Of a DNA stretch of 64,000 nt, positions 60,254 through 64,000 are shown in pieces (within the stretch, counting starts at the first letter, position 1; the number at the start of each line of letters is the position of its first letter). Below the pieces are notes generated by a model. It was not told the DNA's origin and did not search any database. It worked only from the letters and a program-made list of their open reading frames with translations. Both the position numbers and the translations under genes were made by a program. This DNA is from Bythopirellula polymerisocia (GTDB taxonomy: Bacteria; Planctomycetota; Planctomycetia; Pirellulales; Lacipirellulaceae): the NCBI RefSeq assembly GCF_007860015.1, contig NZ_SJPS01000001.1, positions 248,001-312,000 of the forward strand, written 5' to 3'.

Positions 60254-60504
60254 CCTGATTCTATCCTTTCCATTCCCTCCGTTTTCTTTGTTACCTCATG
60301 TTCAATAAATTGATGCAAGCTGCCAAGATTTGTATCATTACTCCCACGGAAATAGAAGGAATAGGAGGAATTGGGGAATGGAGGAATGTTCATACTACGG
60401 CTACAACCGAGTTCTCATCCGTTAGGGTGAACACCATCATGCAGGCTCAAAGTGAAAACAGTTGCCGAGCCAGTAATTTGAATCCACGGTGTTTGCTGCT
60501 TCAG

Positions 60505-60600
60505 GCTTATTAGCTATTAGCTGTTAGCATTTAGCCAGAAAAAAGGCGAAACTGCGGCGATCTCTGGCTAAAAACTAATAGCTAACGGCTAACAGCTTAC
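60505..60600. repeat. Inverted repeat built of TTAGC/GCTAA words
   Basis: The left side (TTAGCTATTAGCTGTTAGCA, TTTAGCCAGA) and the right side (TCTGGCTAAAAACTAATAGC, TAACGGCTAACAGC) are imperfectly complementary around a 20-base spacer. Confidence 0.5.
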
Positions 60601-60941
60601 TTTGAGATTCTAACAAATCGCGCGGCCAAAAACTTGCGCAAAGTTACGACAAACTGCCTCTCCCAATACCCTCCCCCGGGAGGGTCGGACGCGGTAGCGG
60701 CCGGGGAGGGGATTGGAGAAATCTTGGTATTGGGTTAGGCCCTGACTGCCAAAGCAGAAAATACAGCCACTCACGCCCAGGTATCGGAACGACCCCAATG
60801 CGATGAACCCAGCGCTTGCTTCACTCAGATGAACCCTATTTGGCTGGATAGAAGGAGGCAAACCAGGGGACCGCCTCCGACGATTCACACAGGTCCGATA
60901 CTGCCCCCCCGCAGGAGGGTATTTGGGGGGCAGCCCATCCA

Positions 60942-61020
60942 GATTTATCTAGCGGCGGACGAGAAAACCGAGGGACTTAGCGAACTGCCGTTTCTGGCGG
61001 CGGTTGTGCACGCAGACTGC
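60942..61020 (-). repeat. GC-rich hairpin repeat, inverted copy
   Basis: On the minus strand it reads GCGTGCACAACCGCCGCC (exact to 62128-62145) and TCGTCCGCCGCTAGATAAA (exact to 62992-63010). It is a partial member of the repeat family that separates the following genes. Confidence 0.65.
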
Positions 61021-61159
61021 TCATATGTGTGCGTCAAGGTGTAGTCACTTCGATTACGCTTTTCACTGACGCGAACTCGCTGAGGCGTCGGCCGAGGCGA
61101 GACACCTCCAGCAGTTCGCCAAAGTCCTAAACCGCCGCGGCTGATGCATCCTCAGCAGG

Positions 61160-61210
61160 TTTGGAAGGACCGTTCCTCACAGCGGTCAGATTCCCAGCCG
61201 TTAGTTAATA
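61160..61210 (+). repeat. Degenerate copy of the GC-rich repeat
   Basis: CAGCAGGTTTGG, then CAGCGGTCAGATTCCC and AGCC resemble the second half of the copies at 62177 and 63031, with an internal deletion. It ends about 120 bases before the next gene. Confidence 0.45.
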
Positions 61211-61331
61211 GAAACACTCAAAATAGACTACTGGGCGATCTTAATTGCGTGATTGGGGGATTTGGAGGATAACAGAGATGTGCTTGTTCTTGACTCTATC
61301 CTGAATTGTGAGCAATGGGGGGTACAATAAT

Positions 61332-62051
61332 ATGACTCAGAGAATTGAGCTACTCGTAAGCGTTGCGATTGTGCTCGTACTAGCCAGTTCTGCGATAGGT
61401 GGAACTGCTTGGAATGTCGATTTCCAGGGCGATAGAGACCACCTCAGACTATTTGGCCAAACCAACCCCGTTGACCATACAGAACTTGGCATCTTTTGGA
61501 ACACGTTTGAAGTTCAGGCATTCAATTCGACGACCAACAGTGAATTCGAATCGAATACTTCGATGACACTTCTAGATGCCTTTGGAAACGACGAGGGTGT
61601 AGCTCTGGCATTTTCTGGAGACCTCGTTGGGTGGGCCGGTTCATCCGGGGCCGACTCGCTTGTTGGTGATTACCTGATTCTTGCTTCATTTGCCGGTATC
61701 GACACGAGTTCTGTTTCGTGGACAGTATCGGGCCTGGACGCGAATACCGAATACGATCTGACTTTTTACGCACATAGCACGGGAGGCACGGGGAGCCCTG
61801 TCCGAGGCATAGACTATGCGATGAACGGAGGAGTGTCCTTCACACAAACGAATGCCGACGCTCCAGTCACGGTACGAGTGCTGACAGAGGTTAATGGAAA
61901 AATTTTTGGGACCGCAATGAATATGCTGGAACCAGACGCGGAAGGAAACTGGGCAGGGTTGCAGATTGAGCGAGTCCCCGAACCCTCCACCCTTGCCCTA
62001 GCAACCCTCACTCTCCTCGGCATGAGTTACTGTAGCCGCAAACACACATAG
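61332..62051 (+). CDS. PEP-CTERM sorting domain protein
   Basis: The protein has 239 residues. It has a signal peptide (LLVSVAIVLVLASSAIGGTA), a Thr/Ser/Gly-rich beta domain (with SWTVSGLDANTEYDLTFYAH, typical of exported PEP-CTERM proteins), and the C-terminal anchor VPEPSTLALATLTLLGMSYC followed by SRKHT. ATG 61332 with GGGGGG upstream is preferred to the reading from 61308. It is the first of four plus-strand genes separated by related repeats. Confidence 0.8.
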   Translation: MTQRIELLVSVAIVLVLASSAIGGTAWNVDFQGDRDHLRLFGQTNPVDHTELGIFWNTFEVQAFNSTTNSEFESNTSMTLLDAFGNDEGVALAFSGDLVGWAGSSGADSLVGDYLILASFAGIDTSSVSWTVSGLDANTEYDLTFYAHSTGGTGSPVRGIDYAMNGGVSFTQTNADAPVTVRVLTEVNGKIFGTAMNMLEPDAEGNWAGLQIERVPEPSTLALATLTLLGMSYCSRKHT

Positions 62052-62123
62052 ACTAAATCACAGTTACTCCGCTTACAAAAGGGATGGGGCCGTTAAAAAG
62101 TCTGTGGCTAACTCGCAGTTTCC

Positions 62124-62240
62124 TGCGGCGTGCACAACCGCCGCCGCTTCAAATGGCAGCCCCGTCCAAGTACAGCGGTTTGGCACGCCGCCGCGTCCTG
62201 GACTTTGCCGTATCTGGCGGCGGGCAGATTCACGCCACAC
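62124..62240 (+). repeat. GC-rich hairpin repeat, copy A
   Basis: The left arm GCGGCGTGCACAACCGC (62125-62141) pairs with GCGGTTTGGCACGCCGC (62175-62191) through 15 of 17 positions, enclosing a 33-base loop. A further block (GTCCTGGACTTTGCCGTATC, then TGGCGGCGG) follows. From 62177, 52 bases match copy B with about two changes. Confidence 0.8.
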
Positions 62241-62436
62241 TCAAAGTGTCGTGTCTAACTGTGGACGAAACGGCTCAATAGTGAGGATGACCGGCGTGAC
62301 TTATTGCTAAAGGTCTCATCGTATCGGACGATGTATCCTGCAAATTTGGTGCACATGCTGTTACAATGGACGGCGTTCTGAAACTAGAGCGTTCCCAGAC
62401 CGGACCCGAATTGGAAATCCCGGATTGAGAGGCCGA

Positions 62437-62841
62437 ATGCGTGTAATCGCAGCCATTCATGTCGCTGTGGCACTTGGTCTGGTAGTAGCGATCGGTGGTC
62501 TATGGAATTGGGGCGATCCGTCGGAGGCCATTTGCTGGGGTTTCCCAACGATTCTGCTGCTCACAATGGCCTGGGGTCTGTGGAGACGTCAGGCTTGGGC
62601 TCTTGATGTTGTATCGATCGCTTACCGACCAATGTTTGACGTAGGAATTGTACCCTTACTTTTATGTCTCTCATACTATTTTCTAGTTCCGGCTAGGGGG
62701 ATCGCAGTCTTGCACGTTTTCGCGGCTTTAGGGATTCTTCTTCTGTTCCCAGCCGTACTCGTTACGGGCTCGACAGTTTGGTTCTTGAAACGGCGAACGT
62801 CCAGTGAACAGAAGAAGGGACAGGACGATTTGATGGAGTAG
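62437..62841 (+). CDS. Small membrane protein of unknown function
   Basis: The protein has 134 residues with four hydrophobic segments: VIAAIHVAVALGLVVAIGGL; ICWGFPTILLLTMAWGLW; VGIVPLLLCLSYYFL; VLHVFAALGILLLFPAVLV. It ends with a charged tail (KRRTSSEQKKGQDDLME). ATG 62437 has GAGAGG upstream. No family is recognised. It lies between two copies of the GC-rich repeat. Confidence 0.7.
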   Translation: MRVIAAIHVAVALGLVVAIGGLWNWGDPSEAICWGFPTILLLTMAWGLWRRQAWALDVVSIAYRPMFDVGIVPLLLCLSYYFLVPARGIAVLHVFAALGILLLFPAVLVTGSTVWFLKRRTSSEQKKGQDDLME

Positions 62842-63384
62842 GGCGAAGAAAGCAGCTATAATCTTCGTTGAAGGCAGCCTTGGTCTAGGTGAACTTTTCT
62901 CGGTGAAGCTCTCGAAACTAATATCGCCATCATAAAGCGGCGTGAAAAAAATCTGGGCTATAACAGCTTGCTGCTAAGTTCAACGCCATTATCGTCCGCC
63001 GCTAGATAAAGCACCTTGGCTAAGTTCCGAGGTTTGGCACGCCGCCGCGTCCTGGCCTTTGCCGTATCTGGCGGCGGTCAGGTTCCCCGCCGCACTTTGA
63101 CTGTGTACGTAAAATGCATTCGTTAAGCATCACAGATTCGGCTCATCGGAGCCGAACAAGGGGCAACGGCCAAGAACAGCCTTGAAAATTGTTGCAATTT
63201 AAAGGCTCTGGGAGGAGAAATGTGAGAATGGGGTGTGAATTAACCCAATACAGGTTCAGATTAGAACCAAATGGCATATCTGATATAATGCGTAAGGGCA
63301 CAAGGACGGCAGATTCTGGGCCGTGAGTGCCAGACCACATGGCGTCGAGAGACTTCGTTTCCTTCATTTAGAGGAGTGAGTCCG
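62842..63384. other. Intergenic region holding repeat copy B
   Basis: These 543 bases hold no gene. They contain repeat copy B (62990-63100) and, at 63371, GAGGAG, the ribosome binding site of the next gene. Confidence 0.5.
62990..63100 (+). repeat. GC-rich hairpin repeat, copy B
   Basis: TCGTCCGCCGCTAGATAAA, then a variable loop, then AGTTCCGAGGTTTGGCACGC and a block matching copy A. The left arm found in copies A and C is decayed here. The loop between CCGCCGCT and GTTCCG is variable among copies. Confidence 0.75.
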
Positions 63385-63672
63385 ATGTGGAAAGTCGTGG
63401 CAACCTTAGCTTCAATGGTAGTCTGCGGAGCTGTAACTCTGTTTGTGACGGCCCTCGTTCTGATGGAACTAGGCTCACAACATCATAATAACAAGGACTA
63501 CTACGGTAGCCATCCAGCGTTGGTCTTGGGACCCGCGGTCCTGGGCTTCCTAGTCCCGTGGGCATTGGTGTGGTTGCTCGACAAGTTCGTAAACCAAGAA
63601 GCATGGAAAGTCGGACTTCTGGTCTTCGTGTCGCTGGTGCTATGTTTAGCGATAAGAGTATCGCTGGGTTAA
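63385..63672 (+). CDS. Small membrane protein of unknown function
   Basis: The protein has 95 residues with three hydrophobic segments: VATLASMVVCGAVTLFVTAL; LVLGPAVLGFLVPWALVWLL; VGLLVFVSLVLCLAIRVSL. A polar loop (GSQHHNNKDYYGSHP) lies between the first two. ATG 63385 has GAGGAG 8 bases upstream; a GTG three codons earlier overlaps that site. No family is recognised. It is followed 34 bases later by repeat copy C. Confidence 0.68.
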   Translation: MWKVVATLASMVVCGAVTLFVTALVLMELGSQHHNNKDYYGSHPALVLGPAVLGFLVPWALVWLLDKFVNQEAWKVGLLVFVSLVLCLAIRVSLG

Positions 63673-63705
63673 GTTGCTGTGGAGACATACAGTCTACTGA
63701 CTCTC

Positions 63706-63780
63706 TTGCGGCGGCGTGCACAGCCGCTGAAGAAAACTGTGTTCCAACTAGTTCCGCGGTTTGGCACGCCGACGCTGGAT
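63706..63780 (+). repeat. GC-rich hairpin repeat, copy C
   Basis: GCGGCGTGCACAGCCGC pairs with GCGGTTTGGCACGCCG as in copy A. The intervening AGTTCCGCGGTTTGGCACGC is shared. The downstream block of copies A and B is missing. Confidence 0.72.
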
Positions 63781-63934
63781 AAGTGCTGGCCCCTTTATTT
63801 GGAGTAGGTACAATCTAGTGAGGTGACTGGTCATCCACACTCACTCGGCGAACGCTGGGAGGGCTTTTCGTTGGTTTCGTGCCGTCCACTTCTGCAGACG
63901 CTCACGATTAGCATTTTTCACGAGAGGTAAGTAA

Positions 63935-64000
63935 ATGAAATCCGGCTTAATCCTTGGTCTGGCCACCGCCGTTCCGGCATTTCTTGTTCTCTTGATTCCT
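63935..64000 (+). CDS. N-terminus of an exported or membrane protein (cut by window edge)
   Basis: Twenty-two codons are visible: MKSGLILGLATAVPAFLVLL, then IP. This is a hydrophobic leader, either a signal peptide or a first membrane helix. GAGAGG lies 9 bases upstream of the ATG. It is the fourth gene in the repeat-separated series. Nothing more can be said. Confidence 0.6.
   Translation, partial: MKSGLILGLATAVPAFLVLLIP

Follow-up and report, generated by a model that had tools for sequence, protein, structure and literature searches.

The window, a 64,000-nt stretch of the genome of the planctomycete Bythopirellula polymerisocia, ends in an array where short genes alternate with copies of a GC-rich repeat. 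This end lies at 308.9–312.0 kb of contig C1 in the source genome (G000), and the comparison throughout is with a single-contig genome of the same genus (G005). An earlier note, made from the letters of the window, took the array to be gene-cassette-like. We find this cassette reading largely right and the repeat real. The repeat is built of short units, among them a core and a unit u1 that are described below, and the array reads as follows.

60945..61013, minus strand: inverted site, made of a u1 unit (60945-60977) plus sequence identical to copy A's left arm; seen as inverted repeats I1 and I7 and as a u1 profile match on the minus strand at L038 2946-2978.
61045..61156, no strand: separate 112-bp repeat, 90–92% identical to G005 C1:2034895-2035006 and 4105103-4105213.
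61332..62051, plus strand: unit 1 gene, 239 aa, with a PEP-CTERM sorting motif (Pfam PF07589, 21.7 bits against a cut-off of 20.7).
62125..62231, plus strand: site copy A, with a left arm, the core at 62177-62194 and an inverted u1 at the right (repeat families D1-D4; core profile E 9.7e-9; class U0/R2).
62437..62841, plus strand: unit 2 gene, 134 aa, 0 Pfam families.
62973..63085, plus strand: site copy B, with u1 at 62977-63008, the core at 63031-63048 and an inverted u1 at the right (profile matches).
63385..63672, plus strand: unit 3 gene, 95 aa, 0 Pfam families.
63706..63784, plus strand: site copy C, with a left arm, the core at 63758-63775 and a 17-position hairpin (fold z −3.4; core profile E 9.1e-10).
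63935..64000, plus strand: first part of the unit 4 gene, which encodes 256 aa when read on in the longer contig (L038 5936-6706); beyond it, outside the window, comes the site C1:312713-312763.

The listing of open reading frames (ORFs) and repeats bears out the four plus-strand genes alternating with the repeat, the fourth running past the window end; their ribosome binding sites were judged by eye only. Copies A, B and C are all present. A and B are 91% identical over 64 nt, a 26-nt block is common to the three, and a 20-nt block to the right of the core occurs three times in the window versus none in 100 shuffles. Copy B is 93% identical over 98 nt to the full-length query, which was itself modelled on copy B. 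The inverted partial copy claimed near 60942-61020 is real: over 38 nt it has 82% complementarity with copy B, and over 18 nt 100% with copy A.

What had passed for a degenerate copy near 61160 is the separate 112-bp repeat. With the sequences placed side by side, it adjoins an inverted u1 unit at all three of its places, one in the window and two in G005. As to the genes at 62437 and 63385, ORF length alone is not beyond shuffles. The unit 2 length is reached by 16 of 100 shuffles, and the strand opposite unit 3 has a longer ORF (117 aa) that 8 of 100 shuffles reach.

The core, GGTTTGGCACGCCGmCGC, is GC-rich and lies in a wider directed motif of about 26 nt with the consensus TAAGTTCCGrGGTTTGGCACGCCGmCGC. 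Related units are u1 (..GGCTTTATCGaCCGCCGCTA; pattern GGnTTTATCGwCCGCCGCTA) and u3 (..GGAGTTTCACGCCGACGC). The sites are mosaics of such short units, some inverted, and many cores have GTTC just ahead of the conserved block. Counting up to one mismatch, the core GGTTTGGCACGCCG is matched 40 times in the 6.14-Mb G000, versus 3 times for the reversed pattern. A 99-nt query has at least 51 matches there, the best 40 of 54 candidates being scored. Extending the contig, as the earlier note proposed, gives a further copy past the window end and dozens more across the genome.

When core and u1 matches no more than 250 bp apart are merged, at least 58 sites result in G000 and 22 in G005, two of the latter coming from profile matches on selected stretches. 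Four of the 51 query matches, inverted or reverse sub-units inside other sites, are left out of this count (C1:308965-309003, C1:308986-309004, C2:722639-722658 and C2:873638-873655), and five of the 40 core matches, at C7:173839, C2:559836, C1:806665, C3:633700 and C3:815962, are not taken as sites. Three site variants in the two species (L042 7847-7870, L250 6195 and L252 4527) have GGTATGATGG after the core GCACG in place of the usual CCGCCGC.

The family is specific to the lineage. The u1 pattern has 29 matches in G000, 13 in G005 and one each in G029 and G042, which makes 4 of 59 genomes. Allowing one mismatch, the core 18-mer is found in 10 of the 59 (G000 among them): 35 times in G000, 8 times in G005 and no more than twice in any other. 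A wide spread of the motif was rejected on this concentration of the core and u1 counts in G000 and G005. Among 84,980 species genomes the exact core has 44 single matches, spread over many phyla and counted by the core sequence alone. Spread by phages or plasmids was likewise rejected, as a search of 72,556 plasmid and 50,697 phage records gives nothing for the one array compared, 6.7 kb of contig C21. The sole core match on a viral contig sits in unrelated GC-rich sequence. In G029, which belongs to a different genus of the family, a lone u1 directly follows the stop codon of an apparent PEP-CTERM protein gene (L243 1500).

The copies are non-random in both place and orientation. Neighbouring G000 sites within 2 kb form 30 pairs, compared with a mean of 1.1 and a maximum of 6 under a uniform null of 2000 draws, so random dispersal was rejected; a random scatter is what the earlier note had named as speaking against its reading. 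The close pairs are co-oriented in 29 of 30 cases in G000 and 7 of 7 in G005, or 36 of 37 together, and the inverted site of the window is the sole opposite-orientation member among the 30. The largest array found has seven sites on the 11-kb contig C21. In G005 three clusters are all minus, while single sites occur in both orientations. The motif as a marker of replication direction was rejected, for on C1 the plus clusters at 0.91 and 1.39 Mb have a minus cluster (1.04 Mb) between them.

The intervals between same-oriented sites number 37 (30 in G000 and 7 in G005) with a median length of 923 bp. This count omits the one opposite-orientation pair and one interval above 2.6 kb; the site limits were hand-set from profile matches, and two extra u1 matches in L238 were left unused. 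Genes were called by ORF length against shuffles, and a home-made coding score was dropped after missing several array ORFs. In 29 intervals the longest ORF is reached by at most 5 of 100 shuffles; 16 of these ORFs share the strand of the site and 13 are opposite to it. No second non-overlapping ORF of at least 80 aa is present in 31 of the 37, so the intervals are mostly single-gene.

Among 36 proteins from inside and beside the arrays, 15 pass a Pfam cut-off, with families including glyoxalase, FMN-binding, thioredoxin-like, methyltransferase, sodium/calcium exchanger, DUF1559, DUF998 and leucine-rich repeats. The mean G+C of the intervals is 0.487 versus 0.521 in window positions 1-57000. 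At each of the two interval ends, 10 of 33 have a TAyrAT box within 130 bp of the site, versus 3 of 33 in mid-interval, a placement that fits genes carrying putative promoters of their own. Most integron cassettes are promoterless, by the available text of PMC9024848. At 334 kb of contig C3 in G000 (L052 8140-8450), a core-like sequence is followed by a possible gene of a 34-residue membrane peptide and then by a full site, a unit of about 300 bp recognized by eye.

The core flanks fall into families on both sides and are mixed. Among 47 core copies, the right type R1 accompanies the left types A, B, C and D/E 3, 3, 2 and 2 times, respectively. Right flanks without an assigned type accompany them 6, 5, 2 and 5 times; some right flanks classed as other resemble weak R1. 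Compared in this way, the left and right flanks combine freely.

Moreover, four units occur in two contexts each, three of them across the species. The unit of a dockerin protein is on two G000 contigs with 84–90% identity, and the glyoxalase unit is in G000 at C4:266k and in a G005 array with 95% identity over 771 bp. In these two, the similarity ends at the motif on both sides and the neighbours are unrelated. Flanking genes of G000 and G005 are about 72–82% alike, versus the 95% of the glyoxalase unit (the best 40 of 139 and the best 40 of 98 candidates scored). Two further units are common to the two species, one with an IS fragment (94.5% identity over 238 bp) and one SRAP-like (82% over 908 bp), each with the similarity ending at the motif on one side. 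Both names go by resemblance and are putative.

One slot with the same flanking genes holds arrays of different genes in G000 (C7:150-170k) and G005 (C1:5368-5387k). The window array itself has a left flank (window 50.4–59.2 kb) that is syntenic in G005, and the synteny stops just before the array. The isolated site at C3:334k has a syntenic left flank with the synteny ending before the site, and no clean empty site is seen in G005 (best 40 of 98 candidates scored). The earlier note had named the same four genes, in the same order in distant relatives, as contrary to its reading. This was not seen: in G005 the 41 matches listed (best 40 of 139 candidates scored) cover only the repeat and none of the four genes.

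The long non-coding stretch ahead of the window array has features of its own. It contains a strong inverted repeat, TTAGCTATTAGCTGTTAGC, and a palindrome, CCCTCCCCCGGGAGGG, at 60504-60597 and 60662-60740. An Rfam scan of the region gives a single sub-threshold match, to a plant microRNA family, over the inverted repeat at 60504-60597.

A directed, clustered and lineage-specific repeat with exchanged, mostly single-gene units is thus present. The motifs run head to tail, and units stand in different contexts with their similarity ending at the motif. From these we infer site-specific recombination at the motif. That the arrays consist of exchangeable single-gene units, or gene cassettes, which are specific to the lineage and recombined site-specifically at the directed end motif, is the explanation toward which we lean, with some reserve.

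Its steps could be as follows. Each unit would end in the directed motif, on which a candidate site-specific recombinase would act as double-stranded DNA. The enzyme would excise a unit as a circle with one motif and insert the circle at another motif. Each gene would bring its own promoter. Because the motif is asymmetric, every insertion would take the same orientation whatever the strand of the gene.

Many of the same data might be had from an intergenic repeat of the REP/BIME or MITE kind spread by transposition, with the genes swapped by homologous recombination or gene conversion and with no dedicated recombinase. The mosaic build of the sites with its inverted units suits it, intergenic repeats would likewise give about one gene per interval, RAYT-kind Y1 transposase genes exist in both genomes, and two of the moved units have the motif at one end only. 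It leaves unexplained, however, the 36 co-oriented pairs of 37 with a gene strand of 16:13. The Y1 matches (6 in G000 and 15 in G005) are all farther than 13 kb from a listed site, and the shared motif is just about 25–45 bp. We rate this explanation as rather unlikely.

The co-oriented ends together with the random gene strand could also arise by one-ended or rolling-circle transposition, IS91/ISCR-like or similar, in which the element takes along an adjacent gene at each round and always inserts at one terminal sequence. IS91/ISCR elements target GTTC/GAAC, and the GTTC just before the conserved block in many cores agrees with this. Yet no transposase was noticed recurring between sites. Y2_Tnp (PF04986) has no match in G000 or G005, but 14 control genomes are equally silent, so its absence is not shown. 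We hold this route improbable. As drivers, RAYT is disfavoured by the want of Y1 adjacency, and IS91 had no Y2_Tnp match in a search where the controls are silent too.

The earlier note had suggested an integron-like or other recombinational array. The second half of this suggestion stands, by the clustering, the co-orientation, the mostly one gene per interval, the mixed flanks and the moved units. The first half does not, by the tests of the integrase IntI, the attC sites and the gene strand. The search for an IntI-type recombinase that the note called for gives none above cut-off in G000 (assembly 94.8% complete), where the best match to the model TIGR02249 has 79.1 bits against 265. This match, a 316-aa frame, is probably a putative XerC or XerD. 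IntI above the cut-off is found twice in G005 and once in G011.

An attC-like end pair (score of at least 11) occurs at 2 of 59 sites, versus 49 of 724 background windows and 4 of 5 attC controls, one control match of which may not be a true pair. The five controls are G005 integron sites chosen by eye, and this rule replaced stricter ones that were insensitive (1 of 5 and 0 of 5 controls). The mean fold z is −0.67 for the sites and −0.32 for control windows, with 8 of 59 and 5 of 59 below −2, respectively, while the five attC sites range from −1.2 to −3.0.

The hairpin reported earlier in copies A and C is there as to its arms (62125-62141 and 62175-62191 in A, 88% complementary). Only copy C folds beyond shuffles, as the z values of A and B are −0.2 and −1.0. 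A and C have the hairpin because their left arm is the variant complementary to the core. As a feature of the family the hairpin was rejected, with a z of at least −1.02 at 7 of 8 folded places and the above mean of the 59 sites.

Integron features found here are the mostly single-gene units and the co-oriented sites within arrays. Those not found are an IntI above cut-off in G000, ends and a fold of attC above background, and genes mainly on the strand of the site. Integron cassette genes lie mostly on the strand of their site. As to an attI beside the integrase, what is seen is a core about 1 kb after a non-IntI tyrosine recombinase in three places. The integron label is not supported.

Degenerate integron arrays, or CALIN, with diverged attC sites and an IntI that is lost or missing from the incomplete assembly, are a related explanation. 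By definition CALIN lack an IntI-type integrase. G005 of the same genus does have two near-identical IntI integrons, the arrays are co-oriented and mostly single-gene, and copy C has its hairpin while slightly more sites than control windows fold below −2. On the other side stand the attC-like pairs no more common than in the background, the mean fold z short of the attC sites, the low IntI score, a motif conserved in sequence and a random gene strand. The attC sites of the true G005 integrons look ordinary and, by eye, unlike the motif. We consider degenerate integrons very unlikely.

The G005 integron itself is 3.9 kb long with IntI and several attC-type sites, and its two copies (C1:2048253-2052133 and 4117389-4121269; L122-L125) are 99.2% identical. 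Both copies are bounded by another 115-bp repeat, as if the whole integron moved as a unit. Integrons and attC sites are known in Planctomycetes from the available parts of PMC2426708 and PMC8352920.

A candidate enzyme for the cassette exchange comes from flank family C. This flank is the end of a stretch carrying a 417–436-aa tyrosine recombinase (PF00589, phrog_1), on which the XerC/D and IntI models score far below cut-off. The exact core is 972–1070 bp downstream on the same strand in 3 of 7 long recombinase copies of G000, the search reaching 2.5 kb where sequence that long existed. Among 13 copies from three genomes that were checked for tRNA genes, seven closely follow one (Arg, Met, Pro, Val, Val, Asn and Pro). 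A fourth C flank, at C4:266k, has tRNA-Lys about 0.6 kb ahead of the core and part of a 1-kb stretch that the three core-bearing loci share, with no room for the recombinase between.

A second copy of the tRNA end was not found at the one locus searched (L054). G000 has 17 PF00589 matches. In the C5 array, the last u1 site is followed by a tyrosine recombinase of another sort, 384 aa long. The tRNA-linked 417–436-aa recombinase is the leading candidate, weakly indicated, by association and not by proof. Paralogous tyrosine recombinases of one family follow tRNA genes in three genomes of the genus (L168, L169, L170, L176, L178, L180 and L054), with the tRNA ends about 120–150 bp before them.

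Several observations weigh against site-specific cassette exchange at the motif or against this enzyme. No recombination was observed, and neither an excised circle nor a strain-level empty site was seen with one genome per species. Of the four moved units, two reach the motif on one side only. On its other side, the SRAP-like unit ends near the gene start with no motif there, and for the IS-fragment unit none was noticed. With tandem u1-u2-u3 units spaced at about 47 bp and some pieces inside the sites inverted, the boundaries are less sharp than those of an integron. Of the 37 intervals, 8 are without a clear gene (two of these lie in the window), and 6 have a second ORF of at least 80 aa.

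As to the enzyme, the core follows the candidate recombinase in 0 of 5 G005 copies and in 0 of 3 further copies with enough downstream sequence (G001, G009 and G010; five further copies in total). Most arrays examined have no known recombinase alongside. The 1-kb stretch is 89–96% identical among the three core-bearing loci, so they are not independent events. The recombinase proteins at the other two are only 53 and 69% identical to the first, versus that identity in DNA, so the stretch too has been exchanged.

Cassette exchange at the motif, if true, would mean dozens of cassette junctions at a site that behaves neither like attC nor with the alternation of dif, so cassette exchange would have arisen more than once. 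Integron finders would miss such arrays, and the traded genes would need to share neither promoter nor strand. The recombination and the candidate enzymes are directly testable. A bolder version is a second, non-integron cassette platform, in which a tRNA-resident phage-type tyrosine recombinase captures promoter-bearing single-gene circles at the double-stranded directed motif and stacks them head to tail at many chromosomal sites. This version we offer as doubtful speculation.

Integrons are the standard example of exchangeable single-gene cassette arrays. In the literature on planctomycete repeats and cassettes and on integron-like tyrosine-recombinase arrays, mostly outside subscription papers, no title or abstract start describes arrays of the present kind.

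The tRNA-borne integrative elements with a phage-type tyrosine recombinase are alike in the recombinase before three cores (PF00589, phrog_1) and in its copies after tRNA genes. They are unlike in that the other recombinase copies here, where that much sequence existed, have no core within 2.5 kb, and L054, the one locus searched, has no second tRNA-end copy. REP/BIME are GC-rich short repeats that lie between genes as mosaics of units. Those with RAYT share these traits with the planctomycete sites, which differ in the one orientation within clusters, the units swapped at the repeat and the distance from any Y1 match.

The dif (pdif) modules of Acinetobacter plasmids and chromosomes resemble these units in the short directed site and in the gene modules moved between contexts. 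The available text of PMC13141974 describes even a module without reading frames, and modules alternating in orientation. The dif modules thus alternate, whereas the planctomycete sites are co-oriented in nearly all close pairs.

Sedentary chromosomal integrons and CALIN are alike in the mostly single-gene units, the one-way sites, the many genes without a known family and the units in new contexts between species. In contrast to them, the arrays here show attC structure and end pairs no more than the background does, G000 has no IntI that reaches the cut-off, and the genes lie on either strand. Their motif is conserved in sequence, whereas attC sites vary in sequence and conserve structure (PMC9024848, available text), and they are small, numerous and spread along the chromosome. 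Although the system works as an integron does, it does not pass the tests for one.

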